The translations under genes were made by a program, and so were the position numbers. Positions 29,016 through 39,127 of a DNA stretch of 64,000 nt are shown here, one piece after another. The stretch spans positions 1 through 64,000 of the forward strand of contig JBCCEW010000013.1 of NCBI GenBank assembly GCA_039030075.1, given 5' to 3'. The notes under the pieces are model-generated. The model did no database searches, had not been told where the DNA came from, and saw only the letters and a program-made list of their open reading frames with translations. Source of the stretch: Myxococcota bacterium (GTDB lineage Bacteria > Myxococcota_A > UBA9160 > SMWR01). The first letter of the stretch is position 1; each line of letters begins with the position of its first letter.

Positions 29016-30698
29016 CTAGCGGCACTCCGCGAGACAGCGCGCGATCCGGCGCGCCACGGCCTCGGGGCCCAGGGCCGCGAGGGTGTCGCCGAGCGGCGGG
29101 CTCGAGGCCGACCCGGTGACCGCCACGCGCAGGGGCTGGGCGAGCTTGCCCAGGCCCACCCCGAGTTCCTCGGCCAGCGTCTCCATCCGCGCCTCGATCG
29201 CCTCGGACGCCCAATCTTCCAGGGTGGCCAGCGCGGCACCCGCGGCCTCGAGCCGGGTGAAGCCGTCGGGCTCGCCTTTCCGCAGCCATTTCTCCACCGC
29301 CTTCGCGTCGAAGGCGTAGGCGTCATCGTCGACCCAGGCGAAGCCGCCCGGACCGTCGCGCCGGCTGACGTCTGCGAGCGTGCGGCAGCGGGAGCGGATC
29401 ATCGCGGCAAAGCGCGTGAGCCAATCCGAATCCCGCGCGGCGTCCGCCACGGCATAGCGGCTGGCCCAGTCGCGCCACGCCGCGAGGAAGTCGGCATCGT
29501 CCTGCTCGGCGATCGTCTGTTGGTTGAAGGCGAGCAGCTTGTCCATGTCGAAGCGCGCGTTCGACACGCCGACCCGGTCCAGCGCGAAGCGCGCTTGCAG
29601 GAAAGCGCGGTCGAAACGCTCGAGGTCCTTGCCCTCGTCATCCTTCTCGCCAGGGCTCCAACCCAGGAGCGCCAGATAGTTGCAGAGCACGTCGGGCAGG
29701 AAGCCCGCGCGTCGGAAGTCTTCGACCTCGATGCAGGGCAGCGCGAGGCCCAGATCGAGCGCCAGCCCGTCGAGCAGGTCGGTCGGCAGCTGGGAGCGCT
29801 TGTCCTTCAACCAGCCGTCGAGGCCCTTCGGCGCCGTCGCCTCGGGAACCAGGGCCTCGAAGTCCGCCTTCCGGGCGCTGTCTTCCTTCAACGCCTGGCG
29901 CACGGCCGCCCGAGCCGCCTTGTCCTTGTCGCGCTTCGACATCTTCGAGCCGTCGGCGTTGAAGATCACGGGCAGATGGGCGTAGACGGGCGCGCGATAA
30001 CCCAACGCTTCCTGCAAGGCCGCGTGGCGCGGCGTGTTGTTGAGGTGTTCCTGGCCGCGGAGCACGTGGGTGATGCCCATCGCCTCGTCGTCGACCACCA
30101 CCGCCAGGTGATAGGTCGGGAAGCCGTCCCGCTTCCAGATCACGAAGTCGTCGAGGTGCTCTTCGCCGAACTCGATCTCGCCGAGGATCTCGTCGACCAC
30201 TCGGAGCGGTGTCTCGGGCATCCGAAACCGCACGACGTGGGGCTCCGAGGCCGCCCGTGCGAGGGCCGCGTCGCGGTCGAAGTCGGCCGCGCACCGGTAG
30301 CGGAAGTTCCGCTTCTCCTCCCGCGCCTGGCGACGCAGCGCGTCGAGTTCCTCGGGGGTTTCGAAGGCCGGGTAGGCCCGGCCCTCCGCGATCAGGCGGT
30401 CCACCGCCTTGCGGTAGAGCGAGAGGCGCTCGGCCTGGCGAAACGGCCCGATCTCGCGCGGGTCCCCCCCGGCGCCCTCCGCCACGGGGCCTTCGCTCCA
30501 GACGATCCCCAGCCACAGGAGGTCTTCGAGGATCCCGGCGGCCGCCTCCTCGGACGATCGCGCCGCATCGGTGTCTTCCACCCTCAGCAGAAACCGGCCG
30601 TCGTCCCGGGCCAGCGCCCAGTTGTACAGAGCCGTGCGCGCCCCGCCGATATGCAAGTGACCGGTAGGAGAAGGGGCAAAGCGGGTCGTCACAGGCAT
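29016..30698 (-). CDS. gltX: Glutamyl-tRNA synthetase with inserted segment after KMSKR
   Basis: This 560-aa class I synthetase charges tRNA-Glu. The HIGH-type motif is HLHIGGA (14-20) and KMSKR is at 252-256. Directly after KMSKR there is an insertion of about 65 residues (257-323), Lys/Arg/Asp-rich and ending before [23 protein letters not shown], which in ordinary enzymes follows KMSKR closely. This accounts for the length above the usual 470-490 aa. The ATG is eight bases after a TAGGCT box. The gene is divergent from rpsR. Confidence 0.93.
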
Positions 30699-30706
30699 GG
30701 CGCGGA

Positions 30707-30712
30707 AGCCTA
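30707..30712 (-). promoter_or_regulatory. Predicted -10 box (TAGGCT) of gltX, near-leaderless
   Basis: TAGGCT on the minus strand ends eight bases before the gltX ATG, and no Shine-Dalgarno sequence is present. Confidence 0.45.
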
Positions 30713-30940
30713 GCAGGATCGAAAATACCTTGGGGAACAGGCAGATAGCGGCTGCGGCGAGCGTCTGGGGGATGGTCTATGCTCGGCGCCCGCGCGCGAC
30801 GGGGGGTCCCGTTGCGTGGGATCGTCCTGGCATTGACGCGGCATCCGAGCTGCGATCGGCGCCGGAGCGCGACGCATCATCGAGTTTTTGGCTGTGGCAC
30901 CCCACCCTGGCGGCGCCGACAGCGCCCCAGGAGAACTGCC

Positions 30941-31279
30941 TTGGCCTACGAAGACACCCGACGCGACGACCGACCCGAGCGACCCGAGCGCGGGCCCATG
31001 TCGGTGAAGTCGCGGCTGCGGGCCAAGGCGCGCAAGCGCGACCGCAAGAACAAGAAGCGCTCCTTCTCGCGCAAGAAGGTCTCGCGGCTCACGACGGACA
31101 AGACGCTCGTCGTCGACTACAAGGACCCGAAGCTTCTGCGCAGCTTCCTCTCCGAGACGGGGAAGATCCTGCCGCGGCGCATCACGGGCAACACGGCGAA
31201 GCAGCAGCGCGAAGTGGCGCTCGCGATCAAGCGAGCCCGTCACCTCGCCCTGCTCCCCTACCCGCCGAACATGGCGTAG
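30941..31279 (+). CDS. rpsR: Ribosomal protein bS18, stand-alone copy with basic N-terminus
   Basis: This 112-aa small-subunit protein contains the S18 core [22 protein letters not shown] followed by [26 protein letters not shown]. The N-terminal 55 residues form an Arg/Lys-rich extension with no Cys pair. The TTG start is chosen because AGGAG lies exactly seven bases upstream; a later ATG at 30998 is less well supported. rpsF and rplI, its usual neighbours, are absent, so it is either relocated or a second copy. Confidence 0.9.
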
Positions 31280-31281
31280 CC

Positions 31282-31296
31282 ACCCCGCTCCGGGGT
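31282..31296 (+). terminator. Hairpin after rpsR
   Basis: ACCCCG and CGGGGT form a perfect 6-bp stem with a 3-base loop three bases after the rpsR stop. A T-run is lacking, which is common in high-GC genomes. Confidence 0.45.
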
Positions 31297-31311
31297 CGAC
31301 GCCAACGCCAG

Positions 31312-33576
31312 ATGACGACCTCGCGAGGGACGGAACTCCGACCCTCGTGGACGCGGCCCGTGCGCGCCTGGCTCGCGGCGCTCGCCATCCTGCTGCTCGG
31401 CCCGACGGCCACGGCCGCGACGTTCTTCGTGACGTCGACCGCCGACTCGGGCCCCGGCACCCTGCGCGCCGCGGTGACGGCGGCGGCGGCCTCGCCGGAT
31501 CTCACCAACACCATCCAGTTCCAGCTCCCCGCGAGCTCCACGATCAGTCTCGTCACCCTGTTGCCGCCAGTGACGACGAACCTCGTGCTCGACGGAAGCG
31601 CGTCGCCCGGGGTCACCATCGATGCTGGCGCGCTGATGCCCTTCTTCGCGCCGACCAGCAGCCTGACCTTCCAGGACGTCAGCGTCACTGGGGGCACGAG
31701 CACGCTCGATCTCGGCTTCGGCGTGCTCACGCTGCAGGAGACCGGCGCCGGCACCTTCGCGACCAACGTGAACGAGCCGATCTTCACGATCGTCAAGTCG
31801 GGCGCGGGCACGACGACGATCCCCACCGGCACGGTGATGCTGACCACCCTGCTCGGTGAGATTCAGATCAACGAAGGCACGCTCGAGGTGAACGGCGTCG
31901 TGTCGGGGGCCCAGGGCGTACGCGTCGGTCCCAACGGAACGCTCGGTGGCTCGGGCGGCGGCAACATCGGCGGCCCCACCACCATCGAAGGACGCGTCGC
32001 GCCCACGACCACCTCGGGCAGTCTGACCTTCTTCAACGGCGTCACCTTCACGCCCGGCTCGGTCTATGCGGTCGACATCCTGCCCGGAAACATCGGCGAC
32101 ACGATCAACTCGGACACGGTCACGATCCAACCGGGCGCGCGCCTCGATATCCTGAGCCAGCCCTCCTCGATCACGACCGACACCACGGTCACGCTGGTCA
32201 ACACGACGACCGCCCTCACCGGCAGCTTCCAGATCCCAGACTTCGCGTTCCTCGACGAGACCGTCGCCCAGACCGCGACGACGCTGATGCTGACCCTGGG
32301 CCCGAACGGCCAGACGCTCTCGACGCTGGCGCAGACCGACAACCAGCGGGCCGTCGCTGGGACGCTCACCGGCCTCGCGCCGGGCACGGGCGACCTCGCC
32401 GACGTCCTCGACGCGATCGATCGCTCGACGACCGGTGACATCGCCCCGCTGCTGGACGCGATCGGCGGCGAGCCGCTGACCGCCTTCGCCACGGGTCGCC
32501 AGATGCTCGGCGAGCGGACCGCCCGGGCGCTGCACCGCCGCGTGCGCGACCGCGCCTGGGGCCAGGCCGAGGCGTTCTACGCGAGCCGACTGGACACCAC
32601 CGAGACGACCGCGAGCGGTTTCCTCGGAGCCGGCTTGGCCACTCCGATGGGCCACTTCGCGATGGGCGCCCCGGCCGCGCGCGCCGACACGACGACACCC
32701 GCTCCGGTGAGTGCGCCGCGTCGCCATGGCCCCGACCGCGCCGGGGTCTGGGTCGACAGCTTCGGACTGTTCGGAACCCTCGAAGGCGAACGCGGTGAGG
32801 CCGAGGTCGAGACGACGCTGTTCGGCGGCATGCTCGGCTTCGACGCCTGGCTCACCGACGAGATCATGGTCGGCCTGGCCGGTGGGTATGCGCGCGGCGA
32901 CCTGGATCCCCAGGGACGCGAAGCCGATCTCACCACCGACACGATCCACGGCGCGCTCTATGCGGGCTGGACCGATTCGAAGGGCTTCCTGTCGGCCTAC
33001 GGCCGCTTCGCCCACACCCTGCAGAGTTCGCGGCGCCGGATCGAAACGACCCAGCTCAACCGCACGGCCAGCGCCGACTGGGACGCCCAGGACTTCGGAG
33101 CCGGGGCCGAAGCCGGCCTCACCGTGTTCTCGCGCGAGCACTGGGGTTTCCAACCGCTCGTCGGCATCGATTGGCTGCGCTTGACCGAGGAGAGTTTCCG
33201 TGAGTCGGGCGCGGGCTCGCTGAACCTCGACGTGGACCCGGAAGATCTCGAGAGCGTCACGGGGCGCTTCGGAGGACGCGTGTTCGGCCGCATCGAGCTC
33301 GACCCGCGGGTCGAGCTGGTCCCCGAGCTGCGCGTCTTCTGGCAGCGCGAGTTCGGCGACCGCGACCGCGCGCTCCAGGCCAATCTGATCGGGACCGGAC
33401 CCGCCGGTACGCTCCGCGTGCGTGGCCCCGAGCTGCCCCGCGACGCCATCATCGCCGGCGTCGGCTGGAGCGCCGCGATCGGCGACGTATTGCAGATCCT
33501 GCTCGACTACGACGTGCTGCTCGACAGCGACCGTCTCGAGCACCAGGGCAACCTGGCGCTGCGCCTGCGCTTCTAG
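31312..33576 (+). CDS. Autotransporter (type Va secretion) with beta-helix passenger
   Basis: This 754-aa protein has a signal peptide (about 1-36), a beta-helix-like passenger whose start carries TSTADSGPGTLRAAV, a linker near 420-470 and a C-terminal 12-stranded beta domain of about 280 residues. The beta domain ends in NLALRLRF, the Phe needed by the BAM complex. The passenger shows no protease or lipase motif I recognise. It is expected at the outer membrane. It is preceded by an S18 gene and faces a DUF4388 gene. Function of the passenger unknown. Confidence 0.9.
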   Translation: MTTSRGTELRPSWTRPVRAWLAALAILLLGPTATAATFFVTSTADSGPGTLRAAVTAAAASPDLTNTIQFQLPASSTISLVTLLPPVTTNLVLDGSASPGVTIDAGALMPFFAPTSSLTFQDVSVTGGTSTLDLGFGVLTLQETGAGTFATNVNEPIFTIVKSGAGTTTIPTGTVMLTTLLGEIQINEGTLEVNGVVSGAQGVRVGPNGTLGGSGGGNIGGPTTIEGRVAPTTTSGSLTFFNGVTFTPGSVYAVDILPGNIGDTINSDTVTIQPGARLDILSQPSSITTDTTVTLVNTTTALTGSFQIPDFAFLDETVAQTATTLMLTLGPNGQTLSTLAQTDNQRAVAGTLTGLAPGTGDLADVLDAIDRSTTGDIAPLLDAIGGEPLTAFATGRQMLGERTARALHRRVRDRAWGQAEAFYASRLDTTETTASGFLGAGLATPMGHFAMGAPAARADTTTPAPVSAPRRHGPDRAGVWVDSFGLFGTLEGERGEAEVETTLFGGMLGFDAWLTDEIMVGLAGGYARGDLDPQGREADLTTDTIHGALYAGWTDSKGFLSAYGRFAHTLQSSRRRIETTQLNRTASADWDAQDFGAGAEAGLTVFSREHWGFQPLVGIDWLRLTEESFRESGAGSLNLDVDPEDLESVTGRFGGRVFGRIELDPRVELVPELRVFWQREFGDRDRALQANLIGTGPAGTLRVRGPELPRDAIIAGVGWSAAIGDVLQILLDYDVLLDSDRLEHQGNLALRLRF

Positions 33577-33600: not shown

Positions 33601-34608
33601 CTAGTTCCGGTGGATCCGGCTCTTCACACGCGCGTGGAGCGCCTGGTGCACCGTCGCTTCGAGGTGCTCTCCGGCGACGAAGAGCAGGAAGAGCATCACT
33701 GTCGACAGCATCGACGAGAGCTGTTCGCAGGCGTCGTCCGACTTGAAGCCGCGATCGTCGAGCATCCCCATCACCACGTCCTCTGGCAGTTCGCCGTCGG
33801 CCGCGAAGCGCAGGCCCCGGAACGTCGCGTGGGCCGGATCGTCGTCGAAGACGCTCTCGACGGCACGATGCAGCGCGGAACCGGCGCCCGCATCGGCCGC
33901 CGTCGCGAAGATGTCGCGGAACGCGCTGTTGAAGGCGATGAGCACGCGCCGCGGTGCATGGTCGTCGCCGTCGGCGCCGACGCGCAGCTCGTCGAGCCGG
34001 CGCACGCCTTCCATCAGGAGTCCCTCGGCCGAGAGCCCGGGGAAGAGCAGCGACTCGTCCACCTCTTCGTCGGTGAGGACGAAACTGCCCTTCGTCTCGA
34101 GCAGGATCGCCTGGAAGACCGTGGTGACATGCTCCTGCACGGCGTTCCAGAGATCGCGCTCCGAGAGCATGCCGCGCTCGACTGCCACGCGGCCCGCGTG
34201 ACGCGCGTCGCCGAACTCGTGCACGAGATCGTCCATGTGCTTGCGCTCGACCAGCCCCATGCGCACCGCCACGTCGTCCAGATGCTCGCCGGCGCGCTGA
34301 CTCGCCGTCCCGCGCACCTCTCCCTGACGGAAGACCACGGTGCGGGTCACGGACGAGCCGTAGACGCGCAACACGGCAGAGCGACGTCCGTGGGCGATCA
34401 GCGTCACGACCTCCGGGAACGGCACCTGGGTGAGATCACCGGCGAGCACCAGGGTCTGGCCCTCGGGTGCCTCGCGCAGCTCGTCGACCCCGAGCAGGAT
34501 CGACGCCGGGGTCTCCACGAGGGCGTAGCCGCGCTCGCGGTGCCGCTCGGGCAGCTCCCCCTGGAGACGAACCCGCCCGTTCTTCGCGATCTGGATGCGT
34601 ACGCTCAT
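33601..34608 (-). CDS. DUF4388 domain protein, second copy
   Basis: This 335-aa paralogue of the 2166-3407 gene has the same layout: a start domain with a short beta region, then EVVTLIAHGRRSAVLRVYG, and the helical GRVAVERGMLSERDLW segment. The C-terminal 130 residues, beginning around IAFNSAFRDIF, differ from the first copy. The family is thought to relay signals, but the mechanism is unknown. The ATG is at 34608, and no clear Shine-Dalgarno sequence is seen. It is the last gene of a minus-strand run after the PQQ dehydrogenase, 56 bp downstream. Confidence 0.72.
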   Translation of the reverse strand: MSVRIQIAKNGRVRLQGELPERHRERGYALVETPASILLGVDELREAPEGQTLVLAGDLTQVPFPEVVTLIAHGRRSAVLRVYGSSVTRTVVFRQGEVRGTASQRAGEHLDDVAVRMGLVERKHMDDLVHEFGDARHAGRVAVERGMLSERDLWNAVQEHVTTVFQAILLETKGSFVLTDEEVDESLLFPGLSAEGLLMEGVRRLDELRVGADGDDHAPRRVLIAFNSAFRDIFATAADAGAGSALHRAVESVFDDDPAHATFRGLRFAADGELPEDVVMGMLDDRGFKSDDACEQLSSMLSTVMLFLLFVAGEHLEATVHQALHARVKSRIHRN

Positions 34609-34664: not shown

Positions 34665-36722
34665 TCACGGCTTCTGGACGCCGGCGGGGCGTGTCCGTGC
34701 TCCGGCCGGGCGCGAAGCTTCCAGGCCCGGCGGAGTACGTGTCGCCTCGCCAGCTTCGGGAAGGGCGAACGCCACCAGGCTGTCGCCGAGGGTCGTTCCG
34801 AGGGTCCCGTGCCCGCCCGCGGCGATCACCACGAACTGACGGCCTCCGGCCAGACGGTAGGTGAGCGGAGTGGCCTGGCCGCCTGCGGGAAGCGTGGCCT
34901 TCCAGAGCAGATCGCCGGTGTCGAGATCGTAGGCGCGGAGCGCATCGTCCATCGCCGCACCGATGAAGACGAGACCGCTCGCCGTGACGATCGGCCCGCC
35001 CATGCTCGGCAGGCCCCACTCGAACCAGAAGGGGAACGGCGCCAAGCCCCGGGTCGATCCGAAGGGCACCTCCCAGCGGACCTCCCCAGTCTCGAGCTCG
35101 AGGGCCAGCAGGGTTCCCCAGGGCGGCGCCGTGCAGGGGACGCCGAGATCGGAGACCAGCACGGATTGGAAGTGTGCGTAGGGCGTGCCGCGTTGGGGAA
35201 AGAGCGTCGAGCGCGGACGCTCGACCACCACCGCGTCGGCTTCGTCGCGGGGCACCACGCGCTCGACGTTCGGCATGCGGTTGACGTTGAGCACCGCGAC
35301 GCCCGTCTCCGGGTCGACCGCGACCCCACCCCAGTTCACGCCGCCCGCCACGCCCGGCGACTGCAGGGTGCCGCGCAGACTCGGGGGCACGAACAAACCC
35401 CCGTGGTCGAGGGCATCGATCTGTGCCGCACACGCGTTGCGCTCCCAGGGAAAGAGGCCCCAGGCCTGTTCGGGCCCCAGGTGCTCGGGCAACAGCCCTT
35501 CCAGATGGGTCGGAAAGGGCTGGGTCGGCGCCGCCTGCTCGTCGGGCAGGGTCGAGGCCGGAACCGGACGCTCCTCGACCGGAAACACGGGAACGCCGGA
35601 CGTGCGGTCGAGCAGGAAGAGGTGCCCCATCTTCGTGGCCTGCAGCAGTGCGGGCACCACGCCCGCCTCGGTCGTGAAGTCGAGGAGTGTCGGCTGGGCC
35701 GCGACATCGTAGTCCCAGAGGTCGTGGTGCACGGTCTGGAAGTGCCAACGCACGGCACCGGTCGCCGCGTCGAGCGCCACGACCGCACTGCCGAAGTGGT
35801 CGCTCCCGGCCCGCGCACCGCCGAAGAAGTCCGGGCTCGGGTTGCCCGTCGGCAGGAACACGAGCCCTCGCGCCGGATCGGCGGCAAGGATCGACCACGC
35901 GTTCGGCGTACCGGCGTGGTACTGGAGCGTGCCGTCGGGCGCCGCTGGTTTCGGAGGAGTCCCGGGCGCCGCCGGGTCGAAGGCCCAACGCAGGGCCCCG
36001 TTGTGGACGTCGAAGCCCCGAACGACGCCGCTCGGCGCGTCGACCCGCTGGCCGTCGGAGACCTGGGAGCCGACCACCACCACGTCGCCGATCACCGTCG
36101 GCGGCGAGGTCACCGCGTACTCGTCCGACGCCTCGACGCCGACGCCCGCCCGCAGGTCGATGTTCCCGTTCACGCCGAAGTCCGCGCAGGGAAGGCCCGT
36201 CTGGGCGTCGAGCGCGATCAGCCGCGCGTCCATGGTTCCGGTGAACACGCGCGCGGCACACGCGCCCTCCGCTGCCGTTCGCACGAACGCCACGCCGCGA
36301 CAGGTCCGCAGCCAATGCCCGGTCGGCGCGACCTCGGGGTCGTAGGTCCAGAGGGCTTCTCCGGTCGCGGGGTCGAGGGCGAACACGCGATTCAGCGGGG
36401 AACAGAAGAAGAGTCGATCCTCGACCACGATGGGCGTGGCCTGGAAGGCGGTCTTGTTGCGGCCATCCTCGTCGCCCGCCGAGACATCGCCGGTATGGAA
36501 CGTCCACGCGGGCTCGAGTGCGGAGACGTTCTCGGGCCCGATCTCGGTGAGCGGCGACCACTGCTGCCCACCCGGATCGCCCCCGTACACCGGCCATTCG
36601 GCGATCGGTCCACTCCGCGGCGAAGTCACGCCCTCCCCACATGCCAGTGCCAGGAGGCCGACGGCGGCGAGTTCGAGCGCCACCTGCAGCGTTCGGAGCA
36701 CAGCTCCCGCGACCCGCCTCAC
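34665..36722 (-). CDS. PQQ-dependent dehydrogenase, lipoprotein-like, without membrane domain
   Basis: This 685-aa quinoprotein resembles membrane glucose dehydrogenase (Gcd) but lacks its five N-terminal membrane helices. It has a short hydrophobic signal with Cys28 in LLALACG, a weak lipobox. The catalytic segment LPTGNPSPDFFGG with Asp298 and the QTVHHDLWDYD motif are intact, as are repeated TGE(A/V)xW beta-propeller blades. The enzyme would oxidise an alcohol or sugar and pass electrons to a quinone or cytochrome. GTG at 36722 is chosen for the signal peptide. It lies 19 bp after a cytochrome-propeller gene. Confidence 0.82.
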   Translation of the reverse strand: MRRVAGAVLRTLQVALELAAVGLLALACGEGVTSPRSGPIAEWPVYGGDPGGQQWSPLTEIGPENVSALEPAWTFHTGDVSAGDEDGRNKTAFQATPIVVEDRLFFCSPLNRVFALDPATGEALWTYDPEVAPTGHWLRTCRGVAFVRTAAEGACAARVFTGTMDARLIALDAQTGLPCADFGVNGNIDLRAGVGVEASDEYAVTSPPTVIGDVVVVGSQVSDGQRVDAPSGVVRGFDVHNGALRWAFDPAAPGTPPKPAAPDGTLQYHAGTPNAWSILAADPARGLVFLPTGNPSPDFFGGARAGSDHFGSAVVALDAATGAVRWHFQTVHHDLWDYDVAAQPTLLDFTTEAGVVPALLQATKMGHLFLLDRTSGVPVFPVEERPVPASTLPDEQAAPTQPFPTHLEGLLPEHLGPEQAWGLFPWERNACAAQIDALDHGGLFVPPSLRGTLQSPGVAGGVNWGGVAVDPETGVAVLNVNRMPNVERVVPRDEADAVVVERPRSTLFPQRGTPYAHFQSVLVSDLGVPCTAPPWGTLLALELETGEVRWEVPFGSTRGLAPFPFWFEWGLPSMGGPIVTASGLVFIGAAMDDALRAYDLDTGDLLWKATLPAGGQATPLTYRLAGGRQFVVIAAGGHGTLGTTLGDSLVAFALPEAGEATRTPPGLEASRPAGARTRPAGVQKP

Positions 36723-36741
36723 GAACGCGCGTGCGCCGCGC

Positions 36742-38595
36742 TCAGCGCCGCGTCCCCTCTTGGCGTGCGTAGTCGGGATCCGGGACGCCACGCGGGTCCA
36801 GCCGCAAGAGCCGCGGCGTGCCTCCTTCGATCTGCCAGGTCGGTTGGTTGGAGTTCGAGGTCCAGACCCGACCTTCGTCGTCGAAGTCGATCTCGCGGGT
36901 GTACGTGACACGGGTCGGGAGGGGGAAGACCGTGAAAGTCTCGGTCTCGGGGACGAAGCGGATCAGCGTGTCGCTGTTGGTGCCGCAGATCCACACGTCC
37001 CCGCTCGGCCGATGGACGTGGAGCGCGTAGGGCGTCTCGGTTCCGGCCGGCTCGATCGGCAAGGGGTACTCGCGGAACTCCCGGGTCTCGGGGTCGAAGC
37101 GCGCGAGCACCCCCGAGGAGAAACCGGGGATCCAGAGCATGCCCTCGTCGTCGAACCGCAGCCGCCGCGGTGCCGTGAACGGCGTCTCGACCATCTCGAT
37201 CGCAAAGCTGTCGGGATCGATGCGTCCGATCCGGTGCTCGTTCAGCTGGCTGAACCAGACCGCCCCGTTCGGCGCGACGTCGATGCCGTAGGGAATCGGC
37301 GCCGTGAACCCATCGCCGTCGGCCGCCGTGCCTCGCAGATCGACGTGGCGCCCGATCCAGAGGGCCAGCGGCATCATACGCATGGCGAAGGCCTGGCCGA
37401 AGGTCCGCGCCGGGAGACGGAGCTCGCGTCGCTCCTCGGTGTGGGGGTCGTACATGCCGAGGTGGTTCGAGGCGGCGATCGTGTACCAGATGCGTCCGCG
37501 CAGATCGAAGCGCAGCGTGTGCGGGTAGAAGCCCTCTTCGAGCGTGACCGTCGTGAACGTCTCGGTCTCGACATCGAAGCGCGCCAGCTGGTTGCCCAGT
37601 GCGAGGGTGATCCAGACGTTGCCATCCGGCGCCACCTGCAACGAGTGGGGCCCGACGTGCGCATTGGCGTTCGGCACCATCGGCGGCCCCGCGCTGGCGA
37701 ACACACCGCCCAGCGGCAGGTCTCCGTGCGGAATCGACCAGGCTTCACGGGCCCCGGTCTCGGGCGTGAGCCGGTAGAGCTGGTCCTGGGTCATGTCGAC
37801 CGAGTAGATCCGCCCGTCCGGGTGCACGAGCATGTCGTGCTGCATGGACGCACGACCGCCGAGGTCCCATTCCTCGACCACCGCCTTGCGCACCTCGGAC
37901 GGCGGCGGGGGCGCGAAGCCAGGCTCGCCCACGCCGAGCGCGGCTGCCGCGTGGTTCGGATCGTAGGCCTCGTTCAGCAGCGCCGGAAGCTTCTCGCGGA
38001 GATCGCGGCTGAGGAGGCCCCCCATGCGACCCATCAGATGCAGGATCTTCCGCCACTCTTCCGGGTCGCGTTGGCGGCGGGTCGCCCAGTTGCCCTGCTG
38101 GTGGCAGTAGGTGCACTGGCGCACGAACTCTTCCCGCTCGTCCGGGTCGTCGAGCCGCGCGAGCAGCAGGTCGAACCAGCGGTTCGCCGGAAGCTGAGCC
38201 GCGACCTCGAGGGGATCCTCGGTCGGCGAAACATCGAGCCGCAGCCACTGTCCGTCCTCGAGCGGGATGTCCTCGCGACGCACGGTGTTCCAGCCGATGC
38301 GGCGCGCGATCACGGTGGTCGGGCCTGCGCCCGCGAGGGGCGGCGTCTGGAAGATCCCCCGCTCGTCTGTGAACACGCTCACCCGGTGCGCCGGCGTGCC
38401 GCGTTGGAAGGTTACGATCGCACCGACGACCGGCTGCTTCCCAGGGCCGAGCACGGCGCCCCGAATGCCCTCCGCAGCACCGGCGGGCGCGCTCTGCGCG
38501 AGCATCCCGACCACGAGCCCGGATAGAATCGCCGCCGCCCTCGCGCTGATGCGTCCGGGCGCGTCGCTGCGCCCGCTGCGAACGGAGACGTCCAT
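36742..38595 (-). CDS. Three-domain protein: carboxypeptidase-regulatory-like, c-type haem, Vgb-like beta-propeller
   Basis: This 617-aa exported protein (signal peptide about 1-41) has three parts. Residues 43-125 are carboxypeptidase-regulatory-like beta-sandwich. Residues 150-215 hold CTYCH (161-165), a CxxCH haem c site, with Met188 or Met191 as possible distal ligand. Residues 235-600 form a beta-propeller like streptogramin lyase (Vgb), with repeats such as PDGRIYSVD, PDGNVWIT and PSGDVWICG. The lyase activity itself is not shown. The ATG has a good purine-rich Shine-Dalgarno sequence. It is co-directional with a PQQ dehydrogenase 19 bp downstream. Confidence 0.8.
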   Translation of the reverse strand: MDVSVRSGRSDAPGRISARAAAILSGLVVGMLAQSAPAGAAEGIRGAVLGPGKQPVVGAIVTFQRGTPAHRVSVFTDERGIFQTPPLAGAGPTTVIARRIGWNTVRREDIPLEDGQWLRLDVSPTEDPLEVAAQLPANRWFDLLLARLDDPDEREEFVRQCTYCHQQGNWATRRQRDPEEWRKILHLMGRMGGLLSRDLREKLPALLNEAYDPNHAAAALGVGEPGFAPPPPSEVRKAVVEEWDLGGRASMQHDMLVHPDGRIYSVDMTQDQLYRLTPETGAREAWSIPHGDLPLGGVFASAGPPMVPNANAHVGPHSLQVAPDGNVWITLALGNQLARFDVETETFTTVTLEEGFYPHTLRFDLRGRIWYTIAASNHLGMYDPHTEERRELRLPARTFGQAFAMRMMPLALWIGRHVDLRGTAADGDGFTAPIPYGIDVAPNGAVWFSQLNEHRIGRIDPDSFAIEMVETPFTAPRRLRFDDEGMLWIPGFSSGVLARFDPETREFREYPLPIEPAGTETPYALHVHRPSGDVWICGTNSDTLIRFVPETETFTVFPLPTRVTYTREIDFDDEGRVWTSNSNQPTWQIEGGTPRLLRLDPRGVPDPDYARQEGTRR

Positions 38596-39127
38596 GGCTT
38601 CCTCTCCTGACCGACCCGAGCACGCTGACCGACCCGAACCCGCCGATCGATCCCGACGCGATGCTATCGCCGCCCTCTGGGTCCTGCCGCTGGCCTGGGC
38701 CTGCGCGTCCACCCCGGCCCCGCCCCCCGACCTCGCAGTCGACGCCCCCCGCGATGCCACCACGCTCCAGGTGTCCCTGGTCTTCGGGCCCGACGCCGAC
38801 CTCGATCTCTACGTGACGGGCCCCTCGGAAGAGACCGTCTACTACGCGAACACTCCCGCCCGTGATCGCGGTCACCTCGACGCCGACCGCCGCTGCGATG
38901 CGCCCGCACCTCGGATCGAGACGATCTCCTTCCCGGCTGCGGTCGCCGGCCGCTACCGGGTGGGAATCGACTATCCCGAAGACTGCGACGACGGGCGGCG
39001 CAACGTCCCCTACCAACTCGTGTGGCACGCACCGGGTGCCGAACCGCGCGGGCAGGACGGCGTCGCCCGCTTCGGTCGCTTCGACTCACGGGTCGTCGAG
39101 ATCGACGTCGGCGACACCGGCCCCTGA
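38594..39127 (+). CDS. DUF2135-like exported protein
   Basis: This 177-aa protein has an N-terminal DRSRRDAIAALWVLPLAWAC, a signal with a twin-arginine pair and a possible lipidated Cys39. The mature part carries GPDADLDLYVTGPS and GRYRVGIDYPEDC, as in DUF2135 (YfaP-like) domains of unknown function. The ATG at 38594 shares the CATG with the divergent haem/propeller gene, so the two coding regions overlap by two bases. GGAG lies six bases upstream, inside the other gene. Start reliability is good because no later start fits. Confidence 0.7.
   Translation: MASSPDRPEHADRPEPADRSRRDAIAALWVLPLAWACASTPAPPPDLAVDAPRDATTLQVSLVFGPDADLDLYVTGPSEETVYYANTPARDRGHLDADRRCDAPAPRIETISFPAAVAGRYRVGIDYPEDCDDGRRNVPYQLVWHAPGAEPRGQDGVARFGRFDSRVVEIDVGDTGP

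Follow-up and report, generated by a model that had tools for sequence, protein, structure and literature searches.

The window analysed here, 64,000 nucleotides of contig JBCCEW010000013.1 from a Myxococcota bacterium (assembly GCA_039030075.1), carries two adjacent genes on its minus strand. The first (36742–38595) encodes a secreted protein of 617 aa, here called HEM, that fuses a haem c site to a propeller of the virginiamycin B lyase (Vgb) type. The second (34665–36722, GTG start) begins 19 bp after the HEM stop codon and encodes a pyrroloquinoline quinone (PQQ) dehydrogenase of the Gcd type, a lipoprotein of 685 aa without a membrane domain. Both genes are intact at the coordinates that a sequence-only reading of the same DNA had given. 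A small lipoprotein, predicted to form a β-sandwich reminiscent of PPC or DUF2135 domains, is encoded divergently on the plus strand (38594–39127), and its start codon overlaps that of HEM in a CCATGG palindrome. In distant bacteria the HEM–PQQ pair is found again, in many cases with the lipoprotein and sometimes with a cytochrome, and it therefore probably represents an undescribed periplasmic electron-transfer module.

Domains and conserved residues of the two proteins

Besides its intact open reading frame (ORF), HEM has a signal peptide, orthologues in many relatives and a confident AlphaFold model (predicted local distance difference test score, pLDDT, 88; predicted template modelling score, pTM, 0.87). 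The signal peptide is followed by a CarboxypepD_reg domain (residues 44–122, 38230–38466 on the minus strand; 40.3 bits against a Pfam cut-off of 32.3), a CxxCH motif in a small helical segment, and the propeller (residues 239–600, 36796–37881), of which residues 434–581 match the Pfam family Vgb_lyase (PF24684) at 81.7 bits (cut-off 50). The earlier assignment of both flanking domains is thus borne out by matches above cut-off, and the proposed haem motif is seen as CTYCH at residues 161–165 (38101–38115). In a Foldseek search, the closest solved structures were virginiamycin B lyase chains, with template modelling (TM) scores of 0.90–0.92 over the target at 16–17% identity.

The single CxxCH of HEM is kept in all 92 homologues. 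Eight residues in and beyond this segment (C161, C164, H165, W181, M188, H253, D254 and H317) are identical in 92/92 sequences, and so are H359, Y436, R477, R478, W488 and Y523. The homologues from contig scans were retrieved with CxxCHQQG or GxYPHT patterns, a selection biased towards C161–H165 and H359, but these residues are also invariant in relatives that were retrieved by genome homology search and not selected by pattern. Met188 (38032–38034), which lies in helix 178–190 of the model, is a candidate for the sixth haem ligand beside His165. Quinohaemoprotein amine dehydrogenase likewise has haem c beside β-sandwich and propeller domains, and HEM resembles it in this arrangement; however, HEM has one haem motif instead of two and a propeller of another family. 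An assignment of HEM to this enzyme was accordingly rejected, with PF09098 scoring 13.8 bits against a cut-off of 25.2 and a single CxxCH present; weak PF09098 matches, also below cut-off, occur in four of 33 members of the HEM family.

Judged by their location where each blade begins, the conserved propeller residues would face the pore, where three histidines (H253, H317, H359), two arginines (R477, R478) and two tyrosines (Y436, Y523) are invariant candidates. H317 and H359 align with the histidines of the PHAI and PHGI motifs of virginiamycin B lyase, so that HEM has the propeller fold and both PH-motif histidines in common with Vgb, but differs in its fusion to haem c and CarboxypepD_reg and in reading Y-P-H in place of the Vgb EPH motif. 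With this glutamate replaced by Y357, lyase chemistry of the propeller is unlikely. HEM was also rejected as an antibiotic (streptogramin) lyase on the scores of the respective NCBIfam models (49.6 and 40.5 bits against a cut-off of 600). The pore nevertheless looks like a functional site.

As the main alternative to a role as electron acceptor, HEM might itself be an enzyme of the same pathway, whose pore binds a metal or a substrate and whose haem relays electrons, while the PQQ enzyme performs a neighbouring step with an acceptor of its own, such as a small cytochrome c. The seven candidate pore residues and the shared PH-motif histidines speak for this possibility, as does the location of substrate and Mg2+ at blades 6 and 7 of Vgb (PMC8916777). 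On the other hand, a conserved pore may have a structural role, some of the homologues were retrieved via patterns including H359, the loss of the EPH glutamate makes lyase chemistry unlikely, and among propeller relatives none was found that combines a fused haem with known catalysis. On balance, we consider a catalytic HEM of this kind somewhat unlikely.

The dehydrogenase is matched by PF01011 at 758 bits over the whole PQQ domain (positions 1–595). The match to the family of membrane-bound PQQ glucose/quinate/shikimate dehydrogenases (TIGR03074), to which E. coli Gcd belongs, starts only at profile position 153, which indicates that the membrane part is absent, and its 729.6 bits fall below the cut-off of 832.65. 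The entire catalytic propeller is common to both: identity to E. coli Gcd is 39% over 636 aa, and the catalytic positions of the latter (D466, K493, D730 and H775) all align with identical residues. The HHDLWD segment, the lysine of the TK/AKxG segment, the aspartate of the AAMDD segment and the AGGHG histidine are likewise kept. Instead of the N-terminal membrane domain, the enzyme has a signal sequence ending in the lipobox LLALACG, a feature absent from the sequence-only reading. That reading correctly described a Gcd-like enzyme with its catalytic segments but no membrane domain; the loss, however, is a trait of the entire subfamily and not of the window protein alone, since 47 relatives have only 0–1 hydrophobic windows before the PQQ domain, compared with four in E. 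coli Gcd.

Conservation and co-inheritance of the gene pair

HEM homologues were found in 64 of the 148 relatives searched and are mostly full-length within the order, with 52–72% identity. A scan of named genomes put the order in Myxococcota, among Deltaproteobacteria MAGs of which one bears the label UBA9160, and extended the distribution of HEM to Gammaproteobacteria, Halieaceae and Spongiibacteraceae among them, and with lower identity to Alphaproteobacteria, Betaproteobacteria and Nitrospirae. Within 1.5 kb of 92 distinct homologues, the lipoprotein is the commonest partner (47 loci), followed by a PQQ dehydrogenase (27), a cytochrome (15) and an aldo/keto reductase (eight); the 28 loci with none of these include short contigs and distant homologues. 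Lack of a conserved pairing had been named beforehand as a refuting condition for the association of HEM with the dehydrogenase, and the pair proved to be conserved and co-inherited across two phyla.

Adjacency of HEM and PQQ genes spans several families of the myxococcotal order as well as Gammaproteobacteria. Within the order, a PQQ dehydrogenase is encoded directly downstream of HEM in the window and at ten other loci (L075, L079, L080, L082, L093, L102, L106, L115, L116, L117), and the same gene order occurs at the gammaproteobacterial loci L181, L182 and L184–L187. Longer clusters are also found: PQQ, lipoprotein, HEM and cytochrome genes lie in a row at L092 and L101, and the order HEM, lipoprotein, cytochrome, PQQ is seen in the Gammaproteobacteria L156 and L178, the genes of L178 having touching ends. 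The cytochromes near HEM are mono-haem cytochromes c. Within the order, such a small cytochrome is encoded directly downstream of HEM at L092, L094, L097, L099, L100, L101 and L104, and it often accompanies HEM where no PQQ gene is nearby. At L197 (5503–9488), the gene immediately after a HEM homologue encodes a PQQ protein of another type, which itself has an N-terminal haem motif.

Because genomes of this order encode several PQQ dehydrogenases, with three Gcd-like ones in the host genome (5.76 Mb), HEM and PQQ might be regarded as chance neighbours. By a simple estimate, however, three such genes would place one within 1.5 kb of a given gene with a probability well under 1%, compared with the 27 of 92 loci observed in two phyla, and we regard mere coincidence as hardly credible.

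In a tree of 46 PQQ dehydrogenases and E. coli Gcd, the HEM-linked sequences cluster (five label changes against a mean of 16.1 in shuffled trees; 0/500 shuffles were as low), and they fall into two main groups. Type A has the order HEM–PQQ, type B includes lipoprotein and cytochrome, and both groups unite Myxococcota and Gammaproteobacteria. Partner labels cluster on the HEM tree, too (five changes versus 18.9 in shuffles). HEM and PQQ distances are correlated in Mantel tests with r = 0.75 for all 23 pairs, 0.83 for the 15 type-A pairs and 0.75 for the ten type-A pairs from Myxococcota, and in none of these three sets did any of 5000 permutations reach as high a value. Furthermore, for each of the five gammaproteobacterial type-A pairs tested, the nearest myxococcotal HEM and PQQ sequences stem from the same loci (L093 and L102). 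As judged from these sequences, the correlation shows that both genes travelled together, not that their products are in contact, because shared descent of adjacent genes contributes to it.

A possible periplasmic oxidation module

We propose, with an even chance of being right, that HEM and the PQQ dehydrogenase are the central components of a module for periplasmic oxidation, with HEM taking up the electrons of the dehydrogenase. The lipid-anchored quinoprotein would oxidize an alcohol, sugar or cyclic polyol, leaving reduced PQQ. The haem of HEM, held by His165 and probably Met188, could then accept these electrons and deliver them to the respiratory chain, either directly or via a small cytochrome c; in the host genome, the partner cytochrome would be encoded outside the locus. 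The small lipoprotein would probably assist in anchoring or assembling the complex at the membrane. The host encodes PqqC and PqqE as well as a CcmF homologue, albeit one scoring below the cut-off of the model used, and both cofactors can therefore probably be made. With these cofactor genes and the conserved pairing, the role of electron acceptor that the sequence-only reading had assigned to HEM is plausible, though unproven.

A periplasmic PQQ enzyme and a linked c-type haem protein also occur together in PQQ alcohol dehydrogenase systems that have a cytochrome c of their own, such as the ped cluster. Here, in contrast, the enzyme belongs to the Gcd branch and the candidate acceptor is a large fusion protein with a propeller. 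The membrane-bound Gcd family donates its electrons to ubiquinone and not to cytochrome c. This counts against HEM as the acceptor, and several findings point in the same direction. Firstly, operons with HEM and PQQ genes, including those of four genes, often hold an ordinary cytochrome c that could serve as alternative acceptor. Secondly, curated cytochrome c families (PF00034, PF13442) gave no match to the haem segment of HEM, and its propeller pore is conserved beyond the needs of a mere electron carrier. Thirdly, HEM also occurs apart from the dehydrogenase: a PQQ gene is missing within 1.5 kb at 65 of the 92 loci, some of them on short contigs, and in genome homology searches the genomes G022 and G023 contained HEM but no Gcd-like match. 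The distribution of HEM, without a nearby PQQ gene at most loci and together with other oxidoreductases, would also suit an enzymatic HEM.

Distant HEM homologues are accompanied by other genes instead of PQQ, a further point against the acceptor role. In a recurring cluster (L200, L201, L202, L203, L205, L209, L210) from Herbaspirillum, Noviherbaspirillum, Alteromonas, Thalassotalea, Simplicispira and Alphaproteobacteria, the neighbours of HEM come from a set of genes for an epimerase-type short-chain dehydrogenase/reductase (SDR), a major facilitator superfamily (MFS) transporter and a short-chain dehydrogenase. The clusters of L203 and L210 additionally hold a transporter of the SBF (bile acid symporter family) type, that of L210 recognized by sequence resemblance only. 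This arrangement again suggests catabolism of some small molecule. At nine loci (L083, L087, L088, L095, L103, L105, L109, L110, L120), an aldo/keto reductase takes the place of PQQ just downstream of HEM. The HEM–PQQ pairs of L181, L184 and L186 are flanked by genes for acyl-CoA dehydrogenase or acyl-CoA ligase, in L184 also by one for a cytochrome P450, a hint at a lipid-like substrate.

Partners that differ in this way from locus to locus, with acyl-CoA enzymes, P450, SDRs and transporters in some neighbourhoods, could also mean that HEM, the lipoprotein, the PQQ enzyme, the aldo/keto reductase and others belong to a co-regulated set of catabolic genes for a shared pathway whose products make no contact, with HEM sensing or binding the substrate. 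However, the agreement of the HEM and PQQ trees across phyla and the very tight type-A spacing suggest more than loose co-regulation, and such an arrangement appears improbable.

A broader proposal, which we rate as rather unlikely, would make HEM a new class of periplasmic haem c/Vgb-propeller redox enzyme with a histidine-based pore site. It would act together with lipoproteins of a new family and with partners that can replace one another, be they PQQ enzymes (Gcd-type or haem-bearing), small cytochromes or reductases, and the cassette would move between phyla. The folds of all components are known, but neither the fusion nor its conserved association with a Gcd-type dehydrogenase, the new lipoprotein and a cytochrome was found in the open-licence literature searched. 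This agrees with the sequence-only reading, to which the combination was not known as a described system. The known family offers no explanation of how electrons leave Gcd-type enzymes that lack the quinone-interacting membrane domain, and a conserved haem partner, as in the proposed oxidation module, would provide an answer. If correct, the proposal would also assign a role to the new lipoprotein family and to a large family of proteins whose only features recognized by curated libraries are the Vgb-type propeller and the CarboxypepD_reg domain.

The small lipoprotein and other neighbours

The divergent lipoprotein had been described as DUF2135-like. It turned out to be the most conserved partner of HEM, and is found beside it also in Alphaproteobacteria (L202, L207, L210), but no DUF2135 model matched it; the only domain match is to PPC, below cut-off, in nine of 41 family members. 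The family has a D-L-D motif, a lipobox cysteine that is almost always kept, and two invariant cysteines besides (C101, C131). The model of the protein is a β-sandwich (pLDDT 85), for which a fold search of the Protein Data Bank returned nothing at E ≤ 0.001 (best E 0.0025, with a low TM score), and its sequence bears no sign of an enzyme. The glycoside hydrolase family 2 (GH2) gene, which had been suggested to supply a sugar substrate, adjoins HEM only in the host genome and beside no other HEM homologue, and was rejected as a member of the system.

The ORFs of cluster c28, which are antisense and conserved from locus to locus, were set aside as apparent shadows of the cytochrome gene. A gene for a DUF4388 protein (33601–34500, minus strand) comes after the PQQ gene in the window; it also follows PQQ in L075 and HEM in L076, and is conserved only in near relatives. 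Finally, a long ORF at 30697–33576 on the plus strand resembles an autotransporter barrel in its C-terminal part, whereas its N-terminal in-frame stretch may be non-coding.

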